This document shows, piece by piece, positions 21,275-29,816 of a stretch of DNA of 64,000 nt (position 1 is its first letter; each line of letters opens with the position of its first letter). The position numbers and the translations under genes were made by a program. Origin of the DNA: Muricauda sp. MAR_2010_75 (GTDB lineage Bacteria > Bacteroidota > Bacteroidia > Flavobacteriales > Flavobacteriaceae); contig NZ_JQNJ01000001.1 in assembly GCF_000745185.1 (NCBI RefSeq), positions 3,888,501-3,952,500 on the forward strand, given 5' to 3'. The notes under the pieces are model-generated. The model worked only from the letters and a program-made list of their open reading frames with translations. It was not told the DNA's origin and searched no databases.

Positions 21275-22537
21275 TCACACGAGGTATTGAAACAGGTCTG
21301 GCTTGTCGTTGAGGTAGTCGCCAAAAAAGTTGTTAGCCTTCATCCGTTGAATCAAAGGTTCCAAATCAGCAGAGGACTTTAACTCAATCCCCACAACAGC
21401 GGGTGCATTCTCCCGACTGGACTTTTTGGAATATTCAAAATGGGTGATGTCATCATCTGGTCCTAAAATATCCGCCACGAATTCTTTTAGGGCTCCAGGA
21501 CGTTGAGGAAATCGAACAATAAAATAGTGTTTCAAATTAGCATAGAGCAAGGCCCGTTCCTTTATTTCCGCAGTACGCGTAATATCATTATTGCTCCCAC
21601 TGATGATACAGACCACGTTTTTCCCTTTGATCCCTTCGGCATAATCATCCAAAACAGCAATGGTCAAAGCTCCAGCTGGTTCCACCACAATGGCATCGCG
21701 ATTATAGAGATCTAATATGGTCTGACATACTTTCCCTTCGGGAACGGTGGATACTTGATAGAGGTGGTCCTTACAAATCGGGAACGTCAATTGCCCCACT
21801 TTTTGTACTGCAGCTCCATCAATAAACTTATCAATATGCTGCAATTCGACCAATTCTCCTTTTTCTATTGATTTTTTTAAGGAAGGTGCTCCCTCTGGTT
21901 CTACGCCAATGATCTTGGTTTGTGGAGATAACGCCTGAAACGTTCCGCACAATCCAGCTGCAAGTCCTCCGCCACCAACGGCAGCAAAAACGTAATCGAT
22001 AGGCTCATTGGATTGTTGCAAGATTTCCAATCCTACCGTAGCCTGACCTTCAATGATTTTTTCATCATCAAAGGGATGCACAAAGGTCTTGCCTTCCCCC
22101 TCGCAGAACGCTTGGGCAGCTTTATTGGAATCGTCAAAGGTGTCGCCTTCCAACACTACGCTCACCCATTCCCCTCCAAACATTTTGGTCTGGTCAATTT
22201 TTTGTTTTGGTGTGACGACAGGCATGTAAATAGTTCCCTCCACCTGCAAATGGCTACAGGCAAAGGCCACTCCTTGGGCATGGTTTCCTGCGCTGGCACA
22301 GACCACTCCCCTTTTCAGCTCATCCTGGGTCAGTGAACTGATTTTATTGTACGCACCGCGAATCTTGTAACTACGGACGCGGTGCAAATCCTCTCGTTTC
22401 AAAAGGATATTGGCCCCATATTTTTTGGAATAGCGGATACTTTGCTGCAAAGGTGTTTCGTCAGCAACCTGCCGAATCGTCTTCGCTGCCTGATAAATAT
22501 CCGCTATTTGTGGAAAATAGGTGTCCACCGTTTTCAT
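21275..22537 (-). CDS. ilvA: Threonine ammonia-lyase (biosynthetic threonine dehydratase)
   Basis: This 420-residue PLP enzyme makes 2-oxobutyrate from threonine, the entry to isoleucine. The PLP lysine is K58 in RSYKIRGAYNK, and the phosphate-binding glycine loop is in AAVGGGGLAAG. The C-terminal 85 residues (from about 335, KHYFIVRFPQRPGALKEF) form one ACT-like regulatory domain, so this is the short, single-ACT form, not the two-ACT enzyme of E. coli. That domain is the likely site of isoleucine feedback control. It is the last gene of the ilv operon, 16 bases after ilvC. I see no clear terminator in the 133 bases after it. Confidence 0.96.
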   Translation of the reverse strand: MKTVDTYFPQIADIYQAAKTIRQVADETPLQQSIRYSKKYGANILLKREDLHRVRSYKIRGAYNKISSLTQDELKRGVVCASAGNHAQGVAFACSHLQVEGTIYMPVVTPKQKIDQTKMFGGEWVSVVLEGDTFDDSNKAAQAFCEGEGKTFVHPFDDEKIIEGQATVGLEILQQSNEPIDYVFAAVGGGGLAAGLCGTFQALSPQTKIIGVEPEGAPSLKKSIEKGELVELQHIDKFIDGAAVQKVGQLTFPICKDHLYQVSTVPEGKVCQTILDLYNRDAIVVEPAGALTIAVLDDYAEGIKGKNVVCIISGSNNDITRTAEIKERALLYANLKHYFIVRFPQRPGALKEFVADILGPDDDITHFEYSKKSSRENAPAVVGIELKSSADLEPLIQRMKANNFFGDYLNDKPDLFQYLV

Positions 22538-22553
22538 GGGGCCAATGGGTTGT

Positions 22554-24029
22554 TTATCCGATAGGTTTCATGGCGGTCATGGATGCACGCAAACGAGCTC
22601 CAACCACTTCCACATCGTGTGTACGGATGGCTTTGTTCACGGCAATCAGCTTAATGTTATCCACGCCCGTATCTTTCCCTTCTCCGAAATGCTTTCCAAT
22701 GACATCGGTTTCGATTTTCTTCATGAAATCGGTCAACAATGGCTTACAAGCATGGTCAAATAAGTAGCAACCATACTCAGCGGTATCGGAAATAACACGG
22801 TTCATCTCGAACAATTTCTTTCTAGCAATGGTATTGGCGATCAACGGGGTTTCGTGAAGCGACTCGTAGTACGCAGATTCACCAATAATTCCGGATTCTG
22901 TCATGGTTTCATAAGCCAATTCAACTCCGGATTTTACAAAAGCGACCATCAACACGCCGTTGTCGTAGTATTCTTGTTCAGAAATGGACATATCGCCGGC
23001 AGGAGTCTTTTCGAAAGCAGTTTCTCCGGTAGCGGCACGCCAATCCAATAGATTTTTATCGCCATTGTTCCAGTCTTCCATCATGGTTTTGGAAAAATGA
23101 CCGCTCATGATATCGTCCATATGCTTTTGGAACAACGGACGCATAATTTCTTTCAATTCTTCGGCCAAATCAAAGGCTTTGATTTTGGCAGGGTTGGACA
23201 AACGGTCCATCATATTGGTGATACCTCCTTGCTTCAATCCTTCGGTAATGGTTTCCCATCCGTATTGAATCAATTTGGAAGCGTATCCGGCATCAACGCC
23301 CTTTTCAATCATTTTATTGAAAGAAAGGATAGATCCTGTTTGCAACAAACCACAAAGAATGGTCTGCTCCCCCATCAAATCTGACTTTACTTCAGCTACA
23401 AAGGAAGATTCCAGTACACCAGCTTTGTCGCCACCAGTACCTGCAGCATAGGCCTTAGCCTGCTCCAAACCTTTGCCCTCTGGGTCATTTTCTGGGTGAA
23501 CGGCGATTAAGGTAGGTACCCCGAACCCTCTTTTGTACTCCTCACGCACCTCAGAACCCGGACTTTTTGGTGCCACCATGATTACGGTAAGGTCCTCACG
23601 TATCTGCATTCCTTCTTCTACGATGTTGAATCCGTGGGAATACGACAATGTCGCCCCCTTCTTCATCAATGGCATTACCGTACTCACCACATTGGTGTGC
23701 TGTTTATCTGGAGTTAGGTTGATGACTAAATCCGCGATGGGAATCAACTCTTCATAAGTTCCTACGGTGAAATTGTTTTCCTTGGCGTTTTTATAGGATT
23801 GTCTTTGTTCTTTAATGGCGGCGGCGCGTAGTGCATAGGAAATATCCAAACCGGAATCCCTCATGTTCAAACCTTGGTTTAAGCCTTGAGCACCACAGCC
23901 CACAATTACAATTTTTTTGCCTTTTAGGGCGGTAACACCATCGGCAAACTCGCTGGGGTCCATAAACCTACATTTTCCCAATTGGGTCAATTGCTCGCGA
24001 AGTGACAGTGTGTTGAAGTAATTTGTCAT
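22554..24029 (-). CDS. ilvC: Ketol-acid reductoisomerase (class II)
   Basis: This 491-residue protein is the long, class II form of acetohydroxyacid isomeroreductase, as in E. coli and plants. The NADPH-binding motif is VGCGAQG near residues 43-49. Two knotted C-terminal repeats carry the metal-binding acidic residues; [12 protein letters not shown] is the first such segment. It converts acetolactate or acetohydroxybutyrate into the dihydroxy acid used by IlvD. It sits in the ilv operon 22 bases after ilvN and 16 before ilvA. Confidence 0.97.
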
Positions 24030-24051
24030 TTTTAGTATCTGATTTTGCTAT

Positions 24052-24579
24052 TTATTGATTTTGAAATTCTGCTAAAATATTAGTGATGGGCATTGCCACT
24101 TTGCTCACAGCAATTCTGCCGGTGCGCACAAACTGCATAATACCGTAAGGCTCCAAGGCGTCATGCATTTCATCAATCTCATGGCGACGGCCTGTTTTTG
24201 CCAACACAAAGAATTCACGACTTACGGTAACAATCTGCGAATGGTGCTCTTTAATGATATTTTGGATTTGACGCTCATCAAACAACAAAGCAGAGGCTAT
24301 TTTGAACAATGCAGACTCTTGATAAATGGTCTCATCATCCGTATGGTAATACGCCTTGATGACCTCTACCTGCTTCTCTATTTGATTGACAATCTTTACG
24401 GCCCAATCTTCGGTGGAGTAAATTACTATTGTAAATTTAGAAACTCCATCAATCTCTGATTTTGAAACATTTAGACTCTCTATATTGATGTGTCGCTTTA
24501 AGAATATCCCCGATATTCTATTAAGCAATCCCACATGATTTTCGGAATATACCGAAATGGTAAACCATTGTTTTTCCAT
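24052..24579 (-). CDS. ilvN: Acetolactate synthase small (regulatory) subunit
   Basis: This 175-residue protein has an N-terminal ACT domain (WFTISVYSENHVGLLNRISGIF, residues about 4-80) and a C-terminal domain typical of IlvN/IlvH. It binds the IlvB catalytic subunit and gives valine feedback inhibition. The C-terminal half (EFFVLAKTGRRHEIDEMHDALEPYGI) is the part that stimulates catalysis. Unusually, ilvN does not follow ilvB directly: a methyltransferase gene lies between them, with a 2-base gap to ilvN. Confidence 0.95.
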   Translation of the reverse strand: MEKQWFTISVYSENHVGLLNRISGIFLKRHINIESLNVSKSEIDGVSKFTIVIYSTEDWAVKIVNQIEKQVEVIKAYYHTDDETIYQESALFKIASALLFDERQIQNIIKEHHSQIVTVSREFFVLAKTGRRHEIDEMHDALEPYGIMQFVRTGRIAVSKVAMPITNILAEFQNQ

Positions 24580-24581
24580 GC

Positions 24582-25163
24582 TTATTTTATTTTAACTGCA
24601 AGGATAAGCCCGGTGGACCAATCCATCTTTGTAAGTGTTATATCTTCTCTCTTTTCCAGTATTTGAATCAATTCTTTGACCTTTTCTTCATGTCCTGATG
24701 GCCAATTGGGCTGTTTGCGCATATCATCAATCACATAAAACCCACCGATTTTCAGCAATTTCAACGCTTTGTCCAAATGGCTGTATTTCCCGGGCCAAGC
24801 ATCAGCGAAAATCAAATCGAAAGCTGCTCCGTTATACGATTCCAGCCATGCACCACCATCCGCGCAAACCAATTTAAGTCTTGATTCGCCGTGAAAAAAG
24901 GCGTTGGCAATCTGGATAAGCTCCGAATCGTTATCAACACTGATAATTTGGGATTTTTCATCCATGCCTTTGATCATCCAAGCCAAGGACAGACCAATTC
25001 CCGTACCCAACTCCAAAAAATTCCCATTGGGCTTGGAGGCTGTCAAAGTCTTCAGCAATGTGCCAATGTACACGTCAGAAGACATGCCAAAACCTATTTC
25101 TCTTGATTTCTCAAGCAACGCCGGATACCTACCCGGCATTTTTAAAATATTCGCTTGGTCCAT
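24582..25163 (-). CDS. Class I SAM-dependent methyltransferase (O-methyltransferase-like) inside ilv operon
   Basis: A 193-residue Rossmann-fold methyltransferase. The SAM-binding motif I is FLELGTGIG (residues 49-57), the acidic ribose-binding residue lies in ISVDND, and a DLIFADAWPGKY segment follows as motif IV. The length and layout fit the catechol/caffeoyl-CoA O-methyltransferase-like group. The substrate is unknown. The gene lies between ilvB (1-base gap) and ilvN (2-base gap), so it must share their mRNA and is probably translationally coupled to both. Methyltransferases are not part of branched-chain amino-acid synthesis, so the placement is odd. It may be a passenger, or act on something linked to the pathway. 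Confidence 0.9.
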   Translation of the reverse strand: MDQANILKMPGRYPALLEKSREIGFGMSSDVYIGTLLKTLTASKPNGNFLELGTGIGLSLAWMIKGMDEKSQIISVDNDSELIQIANAFFHGESRLKLVCADGGAWLESYNGAAFDLIFADAWPGKYSHLDKALKLLKIGGFYVIDDMRKQPNWPSGHEEKVKELIQILEKREDITLTKMDWSTGLILAVKIK

Positions 25164-25164
25164 G

Positions 25165-26898
25165 CTATTTTAGTATGATGTCGGAAATAGAAGCCCCTGT
25201 TGGCACCATTGGGAACACATTGTCTTCCTTCTCTACCCGAACTTCCAAGAAGTAAGGGTCTTTGGAAACCATCATTTCTTCCACGGCTTCCTTCAATTTT
25301 GAACGTTCCACTACCCTTCTGGATTTGATGTGGTACCCCTCGGCGATTTTCACAAAATCGGGGTTAGTCATAACGGTTGAAGCGTAACGCCTTTCAAAGA
25401 AAAGTTCTTGCCATTGACGCACCATTCCCAAGTGGTCGTTATTCAATACCACAATTTTTACGGGAAGATTATGTTGGAAGATGACCCCAAGCTCTTGAAT
25501 GGTCATTTGATAGCCCCCATCCCCAATAATAGCTACAACCTCGCGGTCCATGGCGCCCATTTTGGCCCCAATGGCTGCCGGAAGGGCAAAACCCATAGTG
25601 CCTAAACCTCCTGAAGTGATATTACTTTTGGTCTGTTTGAATTTGGCATAACGGCAAGCAATCATTTGGTGCTGGCCAACGTCAGATACAATAACTGCCT
25701 TGTGTCCAGAAGCCACATTGATTTGCTCAATAACCTCACCCATGGTAAGTCCCGGTTTGGTTGGGTGAATATCTTTTTCGATTAAGGTGTCATATTCGAT
25801 TTTGTGCTTTTTATCAAACTCGGCCAACCATTCCTTGTGCTCGTTTTTGTTCACCAATGGAAGCAGTAAGTCCAAGGTTTGCTTGGCATTACCCAAAACG
25901 GCAACTTCCACTTTTACATTTTTATTGACTTCGGCTGGGTCAATCTCAAAATGAATGACCTTGGCCTGCTTGGCATAGGTTTCCAGATTTCCTGTTACCC
26001 TATCATCGAAGCGCATGCCGATGGCAATAAGCACGTCGCACTCGTTGGTAAGCACATTGGGCCCGTAATTTCCATGCATACCTACCATACCCATGTTCAA
26101 TGGATGGTCCGTATCCATGGCAGAAAGTCCCAAAATGGTCCAAGCCGCTGGAATTCCAGCCTTTTCAACCAAAGCTTTTAACTGCTCTTCGGCCTCACCC
26201 AAAATCACCCCTTGTCCAAAAACAATATAGGGCTTTTTGGCATTGTTTATCAATTCAGCCGCCTTTTCAATGGCAGTTATATCTGGGTCTGGAGCCGGTT
26301 TATAGCTTCGTACACCTGTACATTTCTCGTATGTGAAATCCAACTCATCAAACTGGGCATTCTTGGTGATGTCCACCAATACAGGGCCCGGTCTACCTGA
26401 TCTAGCGATATAGAACGCCTTAGCCATGATCTCTGGAATTTCTTCGGCACGGGTAATCTGATAGTTCCATTTGGTTACCGGGGTTGAAATACCCACGATG
26501 TCCGTTTCTTGGAAAGCATCAGAACCTAATAGATGTCGTGCTACCTGTCCGGTGATGCACACCATTGGCGTAGAATCTATCTGCGCATCGGCAATACCTG
26601 TCACCAAATTAGTGGCACCAGGACCGGAAGTGGCCATGGCCACACCCACTCTTCCACTTACTCGCGCATACCCTTGAGCTGCGTGGGTAGCCCCTTGCTC
26701 ATGTCGGGTAAGAATATGGGTGAGTTTATCTTGAAATTTGTATAACTCATCATACACTGGCATGATGGCCCCTCCGGGGTAACCATAAATCAAATCGACC
26801 CCTTCCGCCAACAAACAATGTATTATGGCCTCAGCACCAGTAATGCGAATAGAAGTGCTTTTTTTCTTGTCTTTCTTTTGTGCTTTTAACGTCTCCAT
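25165..26898 (-). CDS. ilvB: Acetolactate synthase large (catalytic) subunit
   Basis: This 577-residue thiamine-diphosphate enzyme forms acetolactate from pyruvate, and acetohydroxybutyrate from pyruvate plus 2-oxobutyrate. The catalytic glutamate lies in RHEQGATHAAQGYAR. The ThDP/Mg motif runs from GDGGYQMTIQEL to VVLNNDHLG, with the asparagine NN as metal ligand. The middle FAD-binding domain lies at about 195-340. The N-terminal 20 residues are a lysine-rich extension (KAQKKDKKKSTS) before the conserved start at TGAEAIIHCL. It is the second gene of the ilv operon, 53 bases after ilvD. Confidence 0.97.
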   Translation of the reverse strand: METLKAQKKDKKKSTSIRITGAEAIIHCLLAEGVDLIYGYPGGAIMPVYDELYKFQDKLTHILTRHEQGATHAAQGYARVSGRVGVAMATSGPGATNLVTGIADAQIDSTPMVCITGQVARHLLGSDAFQETDIVGISTPVTKWNYQITRAEEIPEIMAKAFYIARSGRPGPVLVDITKNAQFDELDFTYEKCTGVRSYKPAPDPDITAIEKAAELINNAKKPYIVFGQGVILGEAEEQLKALVEKAGIPAAWTILGLSAMDTDHPLNMGMVGMHGNYGPNVLTNECDVLIAIGMRFDDRVTGNLETYAKQAKVIHFEIDPAEVNKNVKVEVAVLGNAKQTLDLLLPLVNKNEHKEWLAEFDKKHKIEYDTLIEKDIHPTKPGLTMGEVIEQINVASGHKAVIVSDVGQHQMIACRYAKFKQTKSNITSGGLGTMGFALPAAIGAKMGAMDREVVAIIGDGGYQMTIQELGVIFQHNLPVKIVVLNNDHLGMVRQWQELFFERRYASTVMTNPDFVKIAEGYHIKSRRVVERSKLKEAVEEMMVSKDPYFLEVRVEKEDNVFPMVPTGASISDIILK

Positions 26899-26951: not shown

Positions 26952-28628
26952 TTAGAACATATCGGTAACACAGCCTTTGGAAGCTGATGATACCATTTTT
27001 GCGTATTTGTATAAATTTCCTGATTTGATCTTCAACTCAGGTTGTTTCCATTCTTTTCTTCGTTGTTCAAGCTCTTCGTCTGAAATATTGATGTTGATGG
27101 TATTGTTCACAGCATCGATGGTAATCTCATCACCATCCTTCACCAAGGCAATACCTCCACCCACTTGAGCTTCGGGTGAAACGTGACCCACCACAAATCC
27201 GTGGGAACCACCGGAGAAACGACCGTCGGTAATCAAGGCGACATCTTTCCCCAAACCAGCACCCATAATGGCAGATGTAGGCTTCAACATTTCGGGCATT
27301 CCGGGAGCTCCTTTTGGTCCTTCATACCGAATGACCACCACATCCCCTTTTTGTACTTTGCCCGTATGAATCCCTTCGTTAACGGCAGTTTCACTATCAA
27401 AAACACGGGCAGTTCCGGTAAATTCAAGTCCCTCTTTTCCTGTGATTTTTGCGACAGCGCCTTCGGTTGCCAAGTTTCCATAAAGGATTCGGATATGTCC
27501 CGTTTCCTTGATGGGTTGGTCTTTCTTTCGGATAATATCCTGACCTTCTACCAAGTCTGGGGCATCCAATAGGTTTTCGGCCAACGTTCTTCCGGTCACG
27601 GTCATACAGTCGCCATGCAACATGCCTTCTTTCAACATATATTTTAGTACTGCTGGAACACCACCTACTTTATGAAGGTCTTCCATCAGGTACTTTCCAC
27701 TTGGTTTTAAATCCGCCAACAAAGGGGTGGTTTCACTGATGCGGGTGATGTCCTCTAAGGTAAAATCCACATCCCCGGCATGGGCAATGGCCATAAAGTG
27801 CAGTACCGCGTTGGTAGAACCGCCCAACACTGTTACCAATCGGAAGGCATTCTCCAACGACTTCTTGGTGACAATGTCACGAGGTTTAATGTCCTCGCGC
27901 AGCAAGTGCAACATAGCTTCACCTGCAGCCTCGCAATCGGCACCTTTTTTGGCATTCACAGCAGGAATGGATGAGTTAAAGGGCAATGACATTCCCATTG
28001 CTTCAATGGCCGAGGCCATGGTATTGGCCGTGTACATTCCGCCGCAAGCCCCGGCTCCTGGGCAGGCTTTGTGAATCACTTCCTTGAATTCAGTTTCGTC
28101 TATGGTTCCCGCTACGCGCTGTCCGTAGGCCTCAAAAGCAGAGATTATGTCCAATTTCTTATCCTTATGGCATCCAGGAGCAATGGTTCCGCCATAGACC
28201 AAAATGGAGGGGCGGTTCAATCGCAATTGCGCCATCAAGGCACCGGGCATATTTTTATCACAACCCACCACGGTTACCAAACCATCATAAGCCATGGCCT
28301 GCACCACAGTTTCCATGGAATCGGCAATAATATCCCTTGAGGGCAGTGAATAGCGCATTCCAGGGGTACCGTTGGAGATACCATCACTCACACCAATGGT
28401 ATTGAAAATTAGCCCGACCAGGTTGGAAGCCTCTGCTCCTCTTTTGACATCAAGGGCCAGTTTGTTCAAATGCATGTTACAGGGGTTGCCCTCGTAACCG
28501 GTACTGGCAATTCCTATAAAGGGCTTTTGTAAATCTTCATCTGTCAGCCCTAGTGCATGCAACATGGCTTGTGCAGCAGGTAGCGTAGGGTCTTGGGTCA
28601 CAGTCTTGCTAAACTTGTTCAATTCCAT
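26952..28628 (-). CDS. ilvD: Dihydroxyacid dehydratase
   Basis: This 558-residue Fe-S enzyme dehydrates dihydroxyisovalerate and dihydroxymethylvalerate to the keto acids for valine and isoleucine. Cysteine ligands are visible in [12 protein letters not shown] and in [16 protein letters not shown], and the C-terminal [14 protein letters not shown] signature is intact. It is the first structural gene of ilvD-ilvB-methyltransferase-ilvN-ilvC-ilvA. Upstream lies a predicted attenuator with its leader peptide (28819-28934), and a second possible promoter element lies close to the ATG (28678-28685). Confidence 0.97.
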
Positions 28629-28677
28629 TGTAAAATTTCATTCAAATACAGAATTCCATTGAATTTAATCTGTCATT

Positions 28678-28685
28678 CAAAGATA
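28678..28685 (-). promoter_or_regulatory. Candidate proximal ilvD promoter -7 element
   Basis: On the minus strand TATCTTTG matches TAnnTTTG exactly and ends about 49 bases before the ilvD ATG. If used, it would start transcripts downstream of the predicted attenuator and give unattenuated expression. No TTG is seen at -33, so it may be a chance match. Confidence 0.3.
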
Positions 28686-28818
28686 AATGTTTAAAAAGGC
28701 CCATATTTTTAACAGTTTCGGGCGGTTTAAATCCATTTAAAAAATAATCATGTTAAATACTTGTAATTCAGATACTTAGGTTAATTCAAAATCCAACATT
28801 CATTTATTTTTATTCGTA

Positions 28819-28856
28819 AAGAAAAAGGGCCTGTATCGTTTTGATACAGGCCCTTT
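28819..28856 (-). terminator. Intrinsic terminator/attenuator upstream of ilvD
   Basis: Read on the minus strand, a perfect 14-bp stem AAAGGGCCTGTATC / GATACAGGCCCTTT with an AAAAC loop is followed by TTCTTT. The arms are plus-strand 28843-28856 and 28824-28837. It lies about 190 bases before ilvD and 120 bases after the pxpC stop. It could simply end the pxp operon, but the leader frame in front of it makes an attenuator more likely. Confidence 0.88.
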
Positions 28857-28879
28857 CCCAGAAATAGTGCGACTGTATC
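28831..28879 (-). promoter_or_regulatory. Candidate antiterminator pairing of the ilv attenuator
   Basis: On the minus strand GATACAG occurs twice: at 28879-28873, overlapping the stop codon of the leader frame, and at 28837-28831 as part of the terminator 3' arm. The first copy can pair with CTGTATC of the terminator 5' arm (28849-28843) and so prevent the terminator. A ribosome reaching the leader stop would cover this copy and let the terminator form. A ribosome stalled on the Val/Ile codons upstream would leave it free. The palindrome TTCCCAATTGGGAA (28881-28894) just before it may add a pause structure. This is inference from sequence complementarity. Confidence 0.65.
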
Positions 28880-28934
28880 ATTCCCAATTGGGAACAATAA
28901 TGACCACACCGTTGACTAGGATATTTCTTTTCAT
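28878..28934 (-). CDS. Predicted ilv leader peptide (attenuation)
   Basis: An 18-codon frame from ATG (28934) to TGA (28880-28878) encodes MKRNILVNGVVIIVPNWE. Three Ile, one Leu and four Val make 8 of 18 residues, with VVIIV consecutive. It lies directly upstream of an intrinsic terminator hairpin and of the ilvD operon on the same strand, like the ilv leader peptides of enterobacteria. The role would be to sense charged tRNA for Ile, Val and Leu through ribosome stalling. No strong ribosome binding site is seen, which is normal in this phylum. Only 42 bases separate it from the pxpC stop. The near-consensus TATTTTTTG (28955-28947) could be its -7 element, giving a very short 5' leader. Confidence 0.75.
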   Translation of the reverse strand: MKRNILVNGVVIIVPNWE

Positions 28935-28976
28935 ACGTCAATGTTACAAAAAATAAATCTTAAAAAGAGGGAAAAC

Positions 28977-29816
28977 TTAAATCAATTTAAGGGAAAGGGA
29001 ATCTCCTGCCTTTTTCTGGGCCAAAACACAAATAGCTGCTTCGGAAAGTTGCAAGATTCTAGGATATCCGCCCGTGGTCTGCCCATCTTTCATCAGGATG
29101 ATCAAACGGCCTGCCGGGGTAAGTTGAACGGTTCCAGGCAATGTTCCGGAGGTGAGCATGGAATGGGAATGTTCTGCAATAAGTTCGTTGAGCTGATACG
29201 CCATTCGGTCGTTGGCCTTAGAAACGGTAAACGGTTTTGAAAAGATTTCAGCCAATTGTTTATCCGTCAGAAGTGAGAACTCAGGCCCTTTAAACACTTC
29301 CAACTCATCCATGAGAAAATGGTCCTCAATCTTTACTTCCGAAATGATGGGTTTGTACGATACTGTTTCCACATATGGGATTTCATCCCCATCCTTGATG
29401 CGCTTTTTCTTGGTTACCGGAAAATATTGTGAGCGACTTTCAAGCACCTTTTCGGTCAAAAAACCTCCCTTTACAGCCAAATAGGTTCTAAATCCATTTT
29501 TCAACTTTCCAAAAGACAATATGTCTCCTTTGGACACCTGAACCACTTGATGGTTTTCAATGGAAGTGTCATTCAATTTGGGCTCAAGATGAGCTCCAGA
29601 CAAACTAATGGCAGTAGGCTCCTCAAATTGCAATTTTGGGCCCATCATAGCAATCTCCAGCACAGCATCGTAGGGGTCGTTCTCCAATAAGAGGTTTGCT
29701 TTTTTCACTGATTCCACATCCATGGCTCCCGAAATGGGAACACCAATGTCTCGGTGACCGAAACGGCCCAAATCTTGAATAGTGGCAAAAAAGCCCGCTT
29801 TTAGCACCTTAAGCAT
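28977..29816 (-). CDS. pxpC: 5-Oxoprolinase subunit C (biotin-dependent carboxyltransferase family)
   Basis: This 279-residue protein belongs to the KipA/PxpC family, recognisable by the N-terminus MLKVLKAGFFATIQDLGRFGH and by PISGAMDVESVKKANLLLEN. With PxpA and PxpB it forms the prokaryotic ATP-dependent 5-oxoprolinase that opens 5-oxoproline (pyroglutamate) to glutamate. The start overlaps the pxpB stop by 8 bases, so the two are translationally coupled. It is the last gene of the Nramp-pxpABC unit. The B. subtilis homologue was first described as KipA, but the pxp context favours the oxoprolinase role here. Confidence 0.93.
   Translation of the reverse strand: MLKVLKAGFFATIQDLGRFGHRDIGVPISGAMDVESVKKANLLLENDPYDAVLEIAMMGPKLQFEEPTAISLSGAHLEPKLNDTSIENHQVVQVSKGDILSFGKLKNGFRTYLAVKGGFLTEKVLESRSQYFPVTKKKRIKDGDEIPYVETVSYKPIISEVKIEDHFLMDELEVFKGPEFSLLTDKQLAEIFSKPFTVSKANDRMAYQLNELIAEHSHSMLTSGTLPGTVQLTPAGRLIILMKDGQTTGGYPRILQLSEAAICVLAQKKAGDSLSLKLI

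Follow-up and report, generated by a model that had tools for sequence, protein, structure and literature searches.

The region preceding ilvD on the minus strand of the window, as the whole 64-kb stretch of Muricauda sp. MAR_2010_75 DNA analyzed here is called, can be read with high confidence as a ribosome-mediated transcription attenuator of the ilvDBNCA operon, driven from a predicted upstream promoter (P1), with a second predicted promoter (P2) probably adding leader-independent transcription. Leader-peptide attenuation is a classic form of gene control that has been described mostly in bacteria of other groups. The enterobacterial ilv leaders (ilvGMEDA and ilvBN) combine a run of Ile, Val and Leu codons, a terminator, and an alternative pairing near the leader stop codon, and they have ordinary 5' untranslated regions. 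Judged from the genome comparisons given below, the Muricauda attenuator is conserved and very probably works as a sensor of amino acid shortage.

The features of the locus are collected in Table 1. I, L or V make up 8 of the 18 residues of the leader peptide, and a short ORF rich in cognate codons is thereby found before ilvDBNCA. The hairpin that follows it has a perfect 14-bp stem and the loop AAAAC. TTCTTT comes next, and the T-run extends into the stem with three of its bases; the leader region folds with a z-score of -7.12, and 0 of 200 shuffles folded equally well. An earlier note on this DNA had described the 18-codon Ile/Val/Leu-rich frame, the 14-bp hairpin and the copy of GATACAG at the stop codon, and direct reading of the minus strand confirmed all three. 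A terminator scan of the window listed no site in this region (28819-28934) and thus gives the hairpin no support, which comes instead from the alignment described below, and a sigma-70 promoter scan of the window produced chance-level output that is uninformative for the flavobacterial promoter type. The products of ilvD, ilvB, ilvN, ilvC and ilvA pass their NCBIfam cut-offs, and the tight same-strand spacing from ilvD to ilvA suggests one operon. The upstream gene, called pxpC in the earlier note, does match the PxpC model, but at 190.7 bits it stays below the cut-off of 500 bits, and it is referred to here as pxpC-like. Between ilvB and ilvN lies a methyltransferase-like gene of 193 aa (24582-25163, minus strand) with a weak family match of 20.5 bits.

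Table 1. Features of the ilv leader locus and of other amino acid leaders read in the same genome. Coordinates are positions in the window unless a locus or contig is named.
Feature	Position	Strand	Remarks
pxpC-like gene	28977-29816	minus	precedes the leader region
P1, promoter-like -7 box TAACATTG	28939..28946	minus	4 nt 5' of the leader ATG
Leader ORF, 18 codons, peptide MKRNILVNGVVIIVPNWE	28878..28934	minus	ATG at 28934; TGA at 28880-28878
Anti-antiterminator hairpin, 5' side (region 1)	28891..28899	minus	within codons 12-15; RNAalifold consensus
Anti-antiterminator hairpin, 3' side	28876..28884	minus	overlaps the stop codon and region 2; RNAalifold consensus
Region 2, GATACAG, antiterminator strand	28873..28879	minus	overlaps the leader stop codon
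Terminator 5' arm AAAGGGCCTGTATC	28843..28856	minus	pairing across the alignment
Region 3, CTGTATC	28849-28843	minus	in the terminator 5' arm; common to antiterminator and terminator
Terminator 3' arm GATACAGGCCCTTT (28837-28824, with region 4) and U-rich tail	28818..28837	minus	
P2, consensus -7 box TATCTTTG	28678..28685	minus	between terminator and ilvD
ilvD, dihydroxy-acid dehydratase	26952..28628	minus	TIGR00110, 760.2 bits, above cut-off; first gene of the operon
ilvB, methyltransferase-like gene, ilvN, ilvC, ilvA	21275..26898	minus	downstream of ilvD
trp leader MNNRIVNTWWWINLRKMS, WWW	L255, G000:C1 near 2654256-2654411	minus	before a trpE-like gene
phe leader MTRTYFWNGFYFYFFFQRGTGLF, FYFYFFF	L252:1357-1488		before a prephenate dehydratase gene; terminator-like hairpin
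his leader MRNKNTYHHLYTCPQAR, HH	L243:1195-1350		before hisG (above cut-off); terminator-like hairpin

Among 60 same-genus genomes, the window's own counted, ilvD is present in 59, and upstream DNA was taken from all of these. The frame, GATACAG at its stop codon and the 14-bp terminator occur together in 46 of the 59 regions, own copy included, 45 of them found by a first pattern and L022 by a wider one. As for the 13 regions without a counted leader, the sequence of L007 stops after 99 bases, only a remnant of the terminator survives in L021, L035 is decayed, and in the others the leader is absent; because 12 of the 58 regions long enough to judge (L007 excluded) have no intact copy, the leader is dispensable. 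The 46 copies encode 41 different peptides. Codon statistics were made on the 45 leaders of equal length (42 different sequences), in which codon 11 is Val without exception and at codons 12, 13 and 14 the share of I, L or V is 93, 93 and 98%, respectively; wide variation is seen at codons 3, 9, 16 and 17 across the same-genus leaders. Over codons 6-15 of these 45 leaders, pS is 0.44 against a pN of 0.22 in the leader frame, and the two other frames (0.27 and 0.25; 0.18 and 0.27) have no comparable pS excess. GTG serves as the start codon in 9 of the 45, and the leader of L020 has gained one whole additional Ile codon, in frame. On codon content and the comparison of pS with pN, the reading of the leader ORF as a chance frame was rejected.

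The RNA structure is likewise shared among these leaders. Unguided folding of the 46 sequences with RNAalifold returned two hairpins, one formed by codons 13-18 and the stop codon and the other being the terminator. In the terminator, 643 of 643 alignment cells are paired, with changes on both sides in 30 cells, at two pairs; none of 500 shuffles had 30 double-change cells, nearly all had two such pairs, and slid versions had at most 13 such cells. A U-rich tail follows in the alignment, and by its pairing and its tail an intrinsic terminator is predicted between the leader ORF and the first gene. The antiterminator, in which GATACAG at the stop codon pairs with CTGTATC of the terminator 5' arm, is paired in 321 of 321 cells (at most 44.4% in slid controls) and varies only by G-U variants, the shuffle control being empty here (500 of 500 reach the observed value) because the 5' arm hardly varies. 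The anti-antiterminator is paired in 97.3% of 414 cells, and its 8 double-change cells, all at one pair, are weak evidence, since sliding by one column gives the same number. Covariation of the terminator lies outside the antiterminator pairs while the shared arm is near-invariant, as is expected of a strand with two partners, and across the leader RNA covariation is limited. The alignment of relatives that the earlier note had proposed as a check of its reading therefore gave a conserved I/L/V-rich frame, a covarying hairpin and a conserved alternative pairing.

The effect of ribosome position was computed for the 46 leaders with the polymerase placed just past the terminator 5' arm and a ribosome footprint of 27 bases. 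For stalls at codons 7, 11, 12, 13 and 14, the antiterminator was the best fold in 45, 45, 44, 42 and 39 of the 46 leaders, respectively; without a ribosome this was so in 1 of 46, and with a ribosome at the stop codon in 0 of 46. By computation, then, an antiterminator that excludes the terminator is set by the position of the ribosome. When the 3' arm was included for the window leader, the terminator won in every folded state, and control would have to be kinetic because the terminator wins at full transcript length.

These foldings suggest the following mechanism. RNA polymerase would initiate at P1, and a ribosome would start the leader frame at the RNA 5' end or about one nucleotide from it. 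With ample charged tRNA-Ile and tRNA-Val, and perhaps tRNA-Leu, the ribosome would come to stand at the stop codon and cover region 2 (GAUACAG), the terminator would form, and the RNA would end near 28820. When charged tRNA is short, a stall in codons 7-14 would mask region 1 and leave region 2 free to pair with the terminator 5' arm, and the polymerase would continue into ilvD. If the leader were not translated, the 1:2 hairpin would mask region 2 and lead to termination. P2, behind the terminator, would probably provide ilv transcription independent of the leader. Both promoters, the coupling and the response in vivo are the elements of this scheme that we infer.

The flavobacterial promoter box TAnnTTTG is located at -12 to -5 in the transcriptome study of Flavobacterium psychrophilum (PMC9723704). 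In 44 of the 46 leaders, the distance from the end of a box of the form TAnn(A/C/T)TT(G/A) to the start codon is exactly 4 nt, and in one it is 5 nt; L027 has no matching box, and the background for this type of box is 279 of 76710 positions (0.0036 per position). Most of these P1 boxes have ATTG instead of TTTG and are thus near the consensus without being perfect. With the box 4 nt away and the spacing given in PMC9723704, the predicted P1 start is the A of the ATG (28934), and by this box spacing the leader mRNA looks leaderless or nearly so. Diversity per site 5' of the start codon is 0.62-0.69 between 60 and 21 bases, 0.16 between 20 and 11 bases, and 0.33 in the last ten, and the -33 region of P1 is without conservation in the same-genus alignment.

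Near-leaderless leader ORFs are not new in kind, since they are described for trpL of Sinorhizobium meliloti, an attenuator leader ORF that begins with the first nucleotide of its RNA (PMC7298713), and for ilvL of the Corynebacterium glutamicum ilvBNC operon (PMC11857589). The latter is also an Ile/Val/Leu leader (15 aa there), its transcription starts one nucleotide from the start codon, and it shares the terminator, antiterminator and anti-antiterminator hairpins as well as further promoters in the operon. In contrast to the Muricauda leader, it belongs to another phylum, its operon order and sequences are different, and mutations were used there to test its dependence on translation and the effects of its codons (PMC11857589).

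In every one of the 59 same-genus regions, the 13 without a counted leader among them, a P2 box TAnnTTTG stands with its first base 56-60 nt upstream of ilvD, as TATCTTTG in 55 and TATATTTG in 4. In the window, about 130 nt separate the terminator from this box, and the predicted start at 28673 would give a 5' UTR of about 45 nt. With P2 placed behind the terminator throughout the 59 regions, a start site belonging to ilvD itself is most likely present downstream of the attenuator, and the gene can probably be expressed without passing the latter. The attenuator probably governs only part of ilv transcription, as one of two inputs, and is likely a booster under amino acid shortage; P2 is the main point against a simple attenuation picture. 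On the 5' side of the P2 box, a conserved noncoding block (28686-28815, minus strand) contains TTGAATATnnnATTTT and AACTGTTAAAA; it persists in same-genus genomes without the leader, has look-alikes by eye in other genera (L065, L066), and is perhaps the binding region of a regulator.

The P2-like box in 59 of 59 regions would also be expected if the hairpin merely ended the pxp operon, the short frame were a product of chance and ilvD were transcribed from P2 alone, and the hairpin does lie 3' of pxpC in the window, with a pxpC-like gene directly upstream of 34 of the 46 leaders. In the other 12, however, a different neighbor or no known one stands there (by tblastn, pxpC lies 589-797 bp farther up in 9, and 3 have none in the upstream DNA compared), whereas 6 same-genus regions have a pxpC-like frame directly before ilvD and no intact leader. 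Frame, stop position and 2:3 pairing are all conserved, and 40 other genera have strong matches to a covariance model of the leader (R1) upstream of ilvD. On the neighbor comparison, the hairpin was rejected as a mere pxp terminator, and the explanation as a whole is very improbable. The earlier note had set against its own proposal that the hairpin only ends the pxp operon and that ilvD starts downstream of it: the 12 leaders with another neighbor or none known speak against the first part, but a promoter-like box does stand behind the terminator in every one of the 59 regions, which is half of what the note had named as refuting it.

R1 replaced a rigid DNA pattern that, being too strict, matched only the window's own copy among 299 family genomes. 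It has one strong match in its own genome (122.6 bits; the next has 31.1), and 95 of the 299 sampled family genomes, own counted, have a match at E 0.001 or better. Outside the genus, 48 genomes from 41 genera reach at least 45 bits, and in 39 of them the match is on the strand of ilvD and no more than 300 bp upstream of it, in 8 the distance is 1.03-1.13 kb, and one (G142) is unplaced. The gene between leader and ilvD was examined in four of the 8 distant loci; it is ilvE in L159, where it was tested, and the frames look alike in L158, L166 and L174. Matches below about 45 bits were not counted. Those compared by eye were mostly not beside ilvD, several of them match both strands, and they look like generic terminators, although the coordinates of G176 (42.5 bits) and G259 (38.7 bits) place these two upstream of ilvD. 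Conservation, codon content, the pairings and the linkage to ilvD are documented by comparison and computation and, with the stall folding, support the claim of a ribosome-mediated ilv attenuator made in the earlier note. From the 41 further genera, it is very probable that branched-chain amino acid synthesis is under classic attenuation in much of the Flavobacteriaceae.

The attenuator might also work as described while its main product was the short terminated RNA or the peptide, with a function in trans like the one proposed for S. meliloti rnTrpL/peTrpL. In that organism the leader is a Trp leader, unlike here, and its terminated RNA and peptide have been assigned trans functions (PMC7298713). 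The predicted terminated leaderless RNA of about 115 nt would fit such a role, and P2, whose start lies about 150 nt beyond the end expected for P1 transcripts, could supply ilvD without help. Nevertheless, the peptide is free to vary at several positions, but its I/V run and the pairing that overlaps the stop codon are maintained, which fits control in cis, and 47 of the 48 strong R1 matches are upstream of ilvD, with one unplaced; a main function in trans is accordingly judged unlikely, if less so than a mere pxp terminator.

Structured RNA that ends in a terminator ahead of biosynthetic genes could also be a metabolite- or tRNA-binding RNA, such as a riboswitch or T-box with an accidental frame. 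This is the least credible of the alternatives, as no Rfam family is reached at the gathering cut-off (best Thr_leader RF00506, 37.1 of 55 bits), and the frame, the two hairpins and the antiterminator explain most conserved positions, with no further aptamer-sized fold in the consensus. The likeness to the enterobacterial ilvGMEDA and ilvBN leaders, which the earlier note had drawn, is one of logic and not a demonstrated one of sequence, as the Rfam search brought up no family at cut-off.

Attenuation of this kind had been regarded in the earlier note as little documented in the Bacteroidota. It was already reported as probable, on "strong clues", before amino acid biosynthesis operons of F. 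psychrophilum, a member of the same family (PMC9723704), where pheA and hisG are named among the conserved 5' elements and ilv is not named in the main text. Long 5' regions with short frames are mentioned for Bacteroides thetaiotaomicron (PMC7366714). In the open-licence literature searched, an ilv or ilvD leader peptide was not found for Flavobacterium or the Bacteroidota, which is weak evidence of absence, and leader-peptide attenuation was tied to the Flavobacteriaceae only in PMC9723704. The noteworthy parts of the present system are its predicted near-leaderless start, its probable second promoter, and its serial duplication in relatives.

The ilv leader is accompanied by other candidate leaders in the same genome (Table 1). 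The terminator-like hairpin of the trp leader ends about 20 nt before the trpE-like gene, whose best model is TIGR00564 (440.8 bits, below the cut-off of 517.7); this leader region was matched in 58 of 60 same-genus genomes, and WWW together with a perfect -7 box 5 nt before the ATG was found in 30 of the 30 loci read. The phe and his leaders were read in the own genome only, and the prephenate dehydratase gene behind the former is above the cut-off for Pfam PDT and at 196 against 219 for NCBIfam. Upstream of two homoserine dehydrogenase genes (L253, L254) of this genome, no terminator was seen in the stretches examined, and an HMGL-like gene (L256) has a weak hairpin upstream without a short frame. 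The trp, phe and his leaders alongside ilv suggest a general attenuation strategy in this genome.

Leader-like units with other sequences were sought with a strict detector, defined as a frame 10-40 codons long, with I/L/V at 6 of 8 positions, followed by a terminator, in a set of 140 loci made up of 80 named ilvD loci and 60 family genomes that lack a strong R1 match beside ilvD (taken in order from a longer list). It was positive in 34 of 140 (18 of the 80 named loci and 16 of the 60 family genomes), in 1 of 140 reverse complements, and in 0 of five sets of 140 shuffles, an excess which indicates that such units stand before ilvD more often than by chance. The detector misses frames that are acceptable by eye (L070, L099, L133) and takes a few doubtful ones (e.g. 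L084, L227). Positives include records of Flavobacterium, Lutibacter, Winogradskyella, Algibacter, Gaetbulibacter, Dokdonia and Aquimarina, as well as two Saprospiraceae MAGs and one MAG labelled Ignavibacteriae; the set's records of Chitinophaga, Mucilaginibacter, Chryseolinea and Fulvivirga gave no positive. Most positives carry other hairpins, commonly CCTTCC with GGAAGG.

Hairpins of this second type also occur in front of the type found in the window. In 9 of 29 R1 loci read outside the genus, an I/V-rich frame with a GGAAGG-type terminator lies 12-140 nt before the GATACAG-type unit (L158, L159, L166, L167, L171, L173, L174, L176 and L178), and two units are also present in L081, L082, L091, L093 and L217; the two units stand upstream of ilvD or, where read, of ilvE-ilvD. 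Relatives of the Gaetbulibacter or Lutibacter type are among those with two. We know of no described pair of leader-peptide attenuators for the same amino acids in series. The tandem attenuators of Salmonella mgtCBR (PMC3641672) are similar to the arrangement in these relatives in having two short ORFs in one long leader region, but they control a Mg2+ transport and virulence operon, whereas the units described here are I/V-rich and precede ilv genes. Tentatively, and with somewhat more doubt than confidence, the window may carry the second half of a two-stage ilv control ancestral to the Flavobacteriaceae, with Ile/Val leader-peptide attenuators of the GGAAGGC type and then of the GATACAG type, SD-less ribosome starts at the very 5' end of the RNA or just after the first terminator, and a separate floor-setting promoter behind. 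If this were true, serial attenuators for the same amino acids would sharpen the response or widen its range. The tandem cases offer a natural test of attenuators in series, and the leader set as a whole offers natural reporters for transcription-translation coupling in the Bacteroidota.

Two of the loci compared have labels from distant lineages: L116, labelled Candidatus Planktophila, which we take to be an actinomycetotal lineage, and L087, labelled Thalassovita, presumably of the Alphaproteobacteria, have an ilvD 66-70% identical to that of the window, and these MAG contigs are perhaps misbinned.
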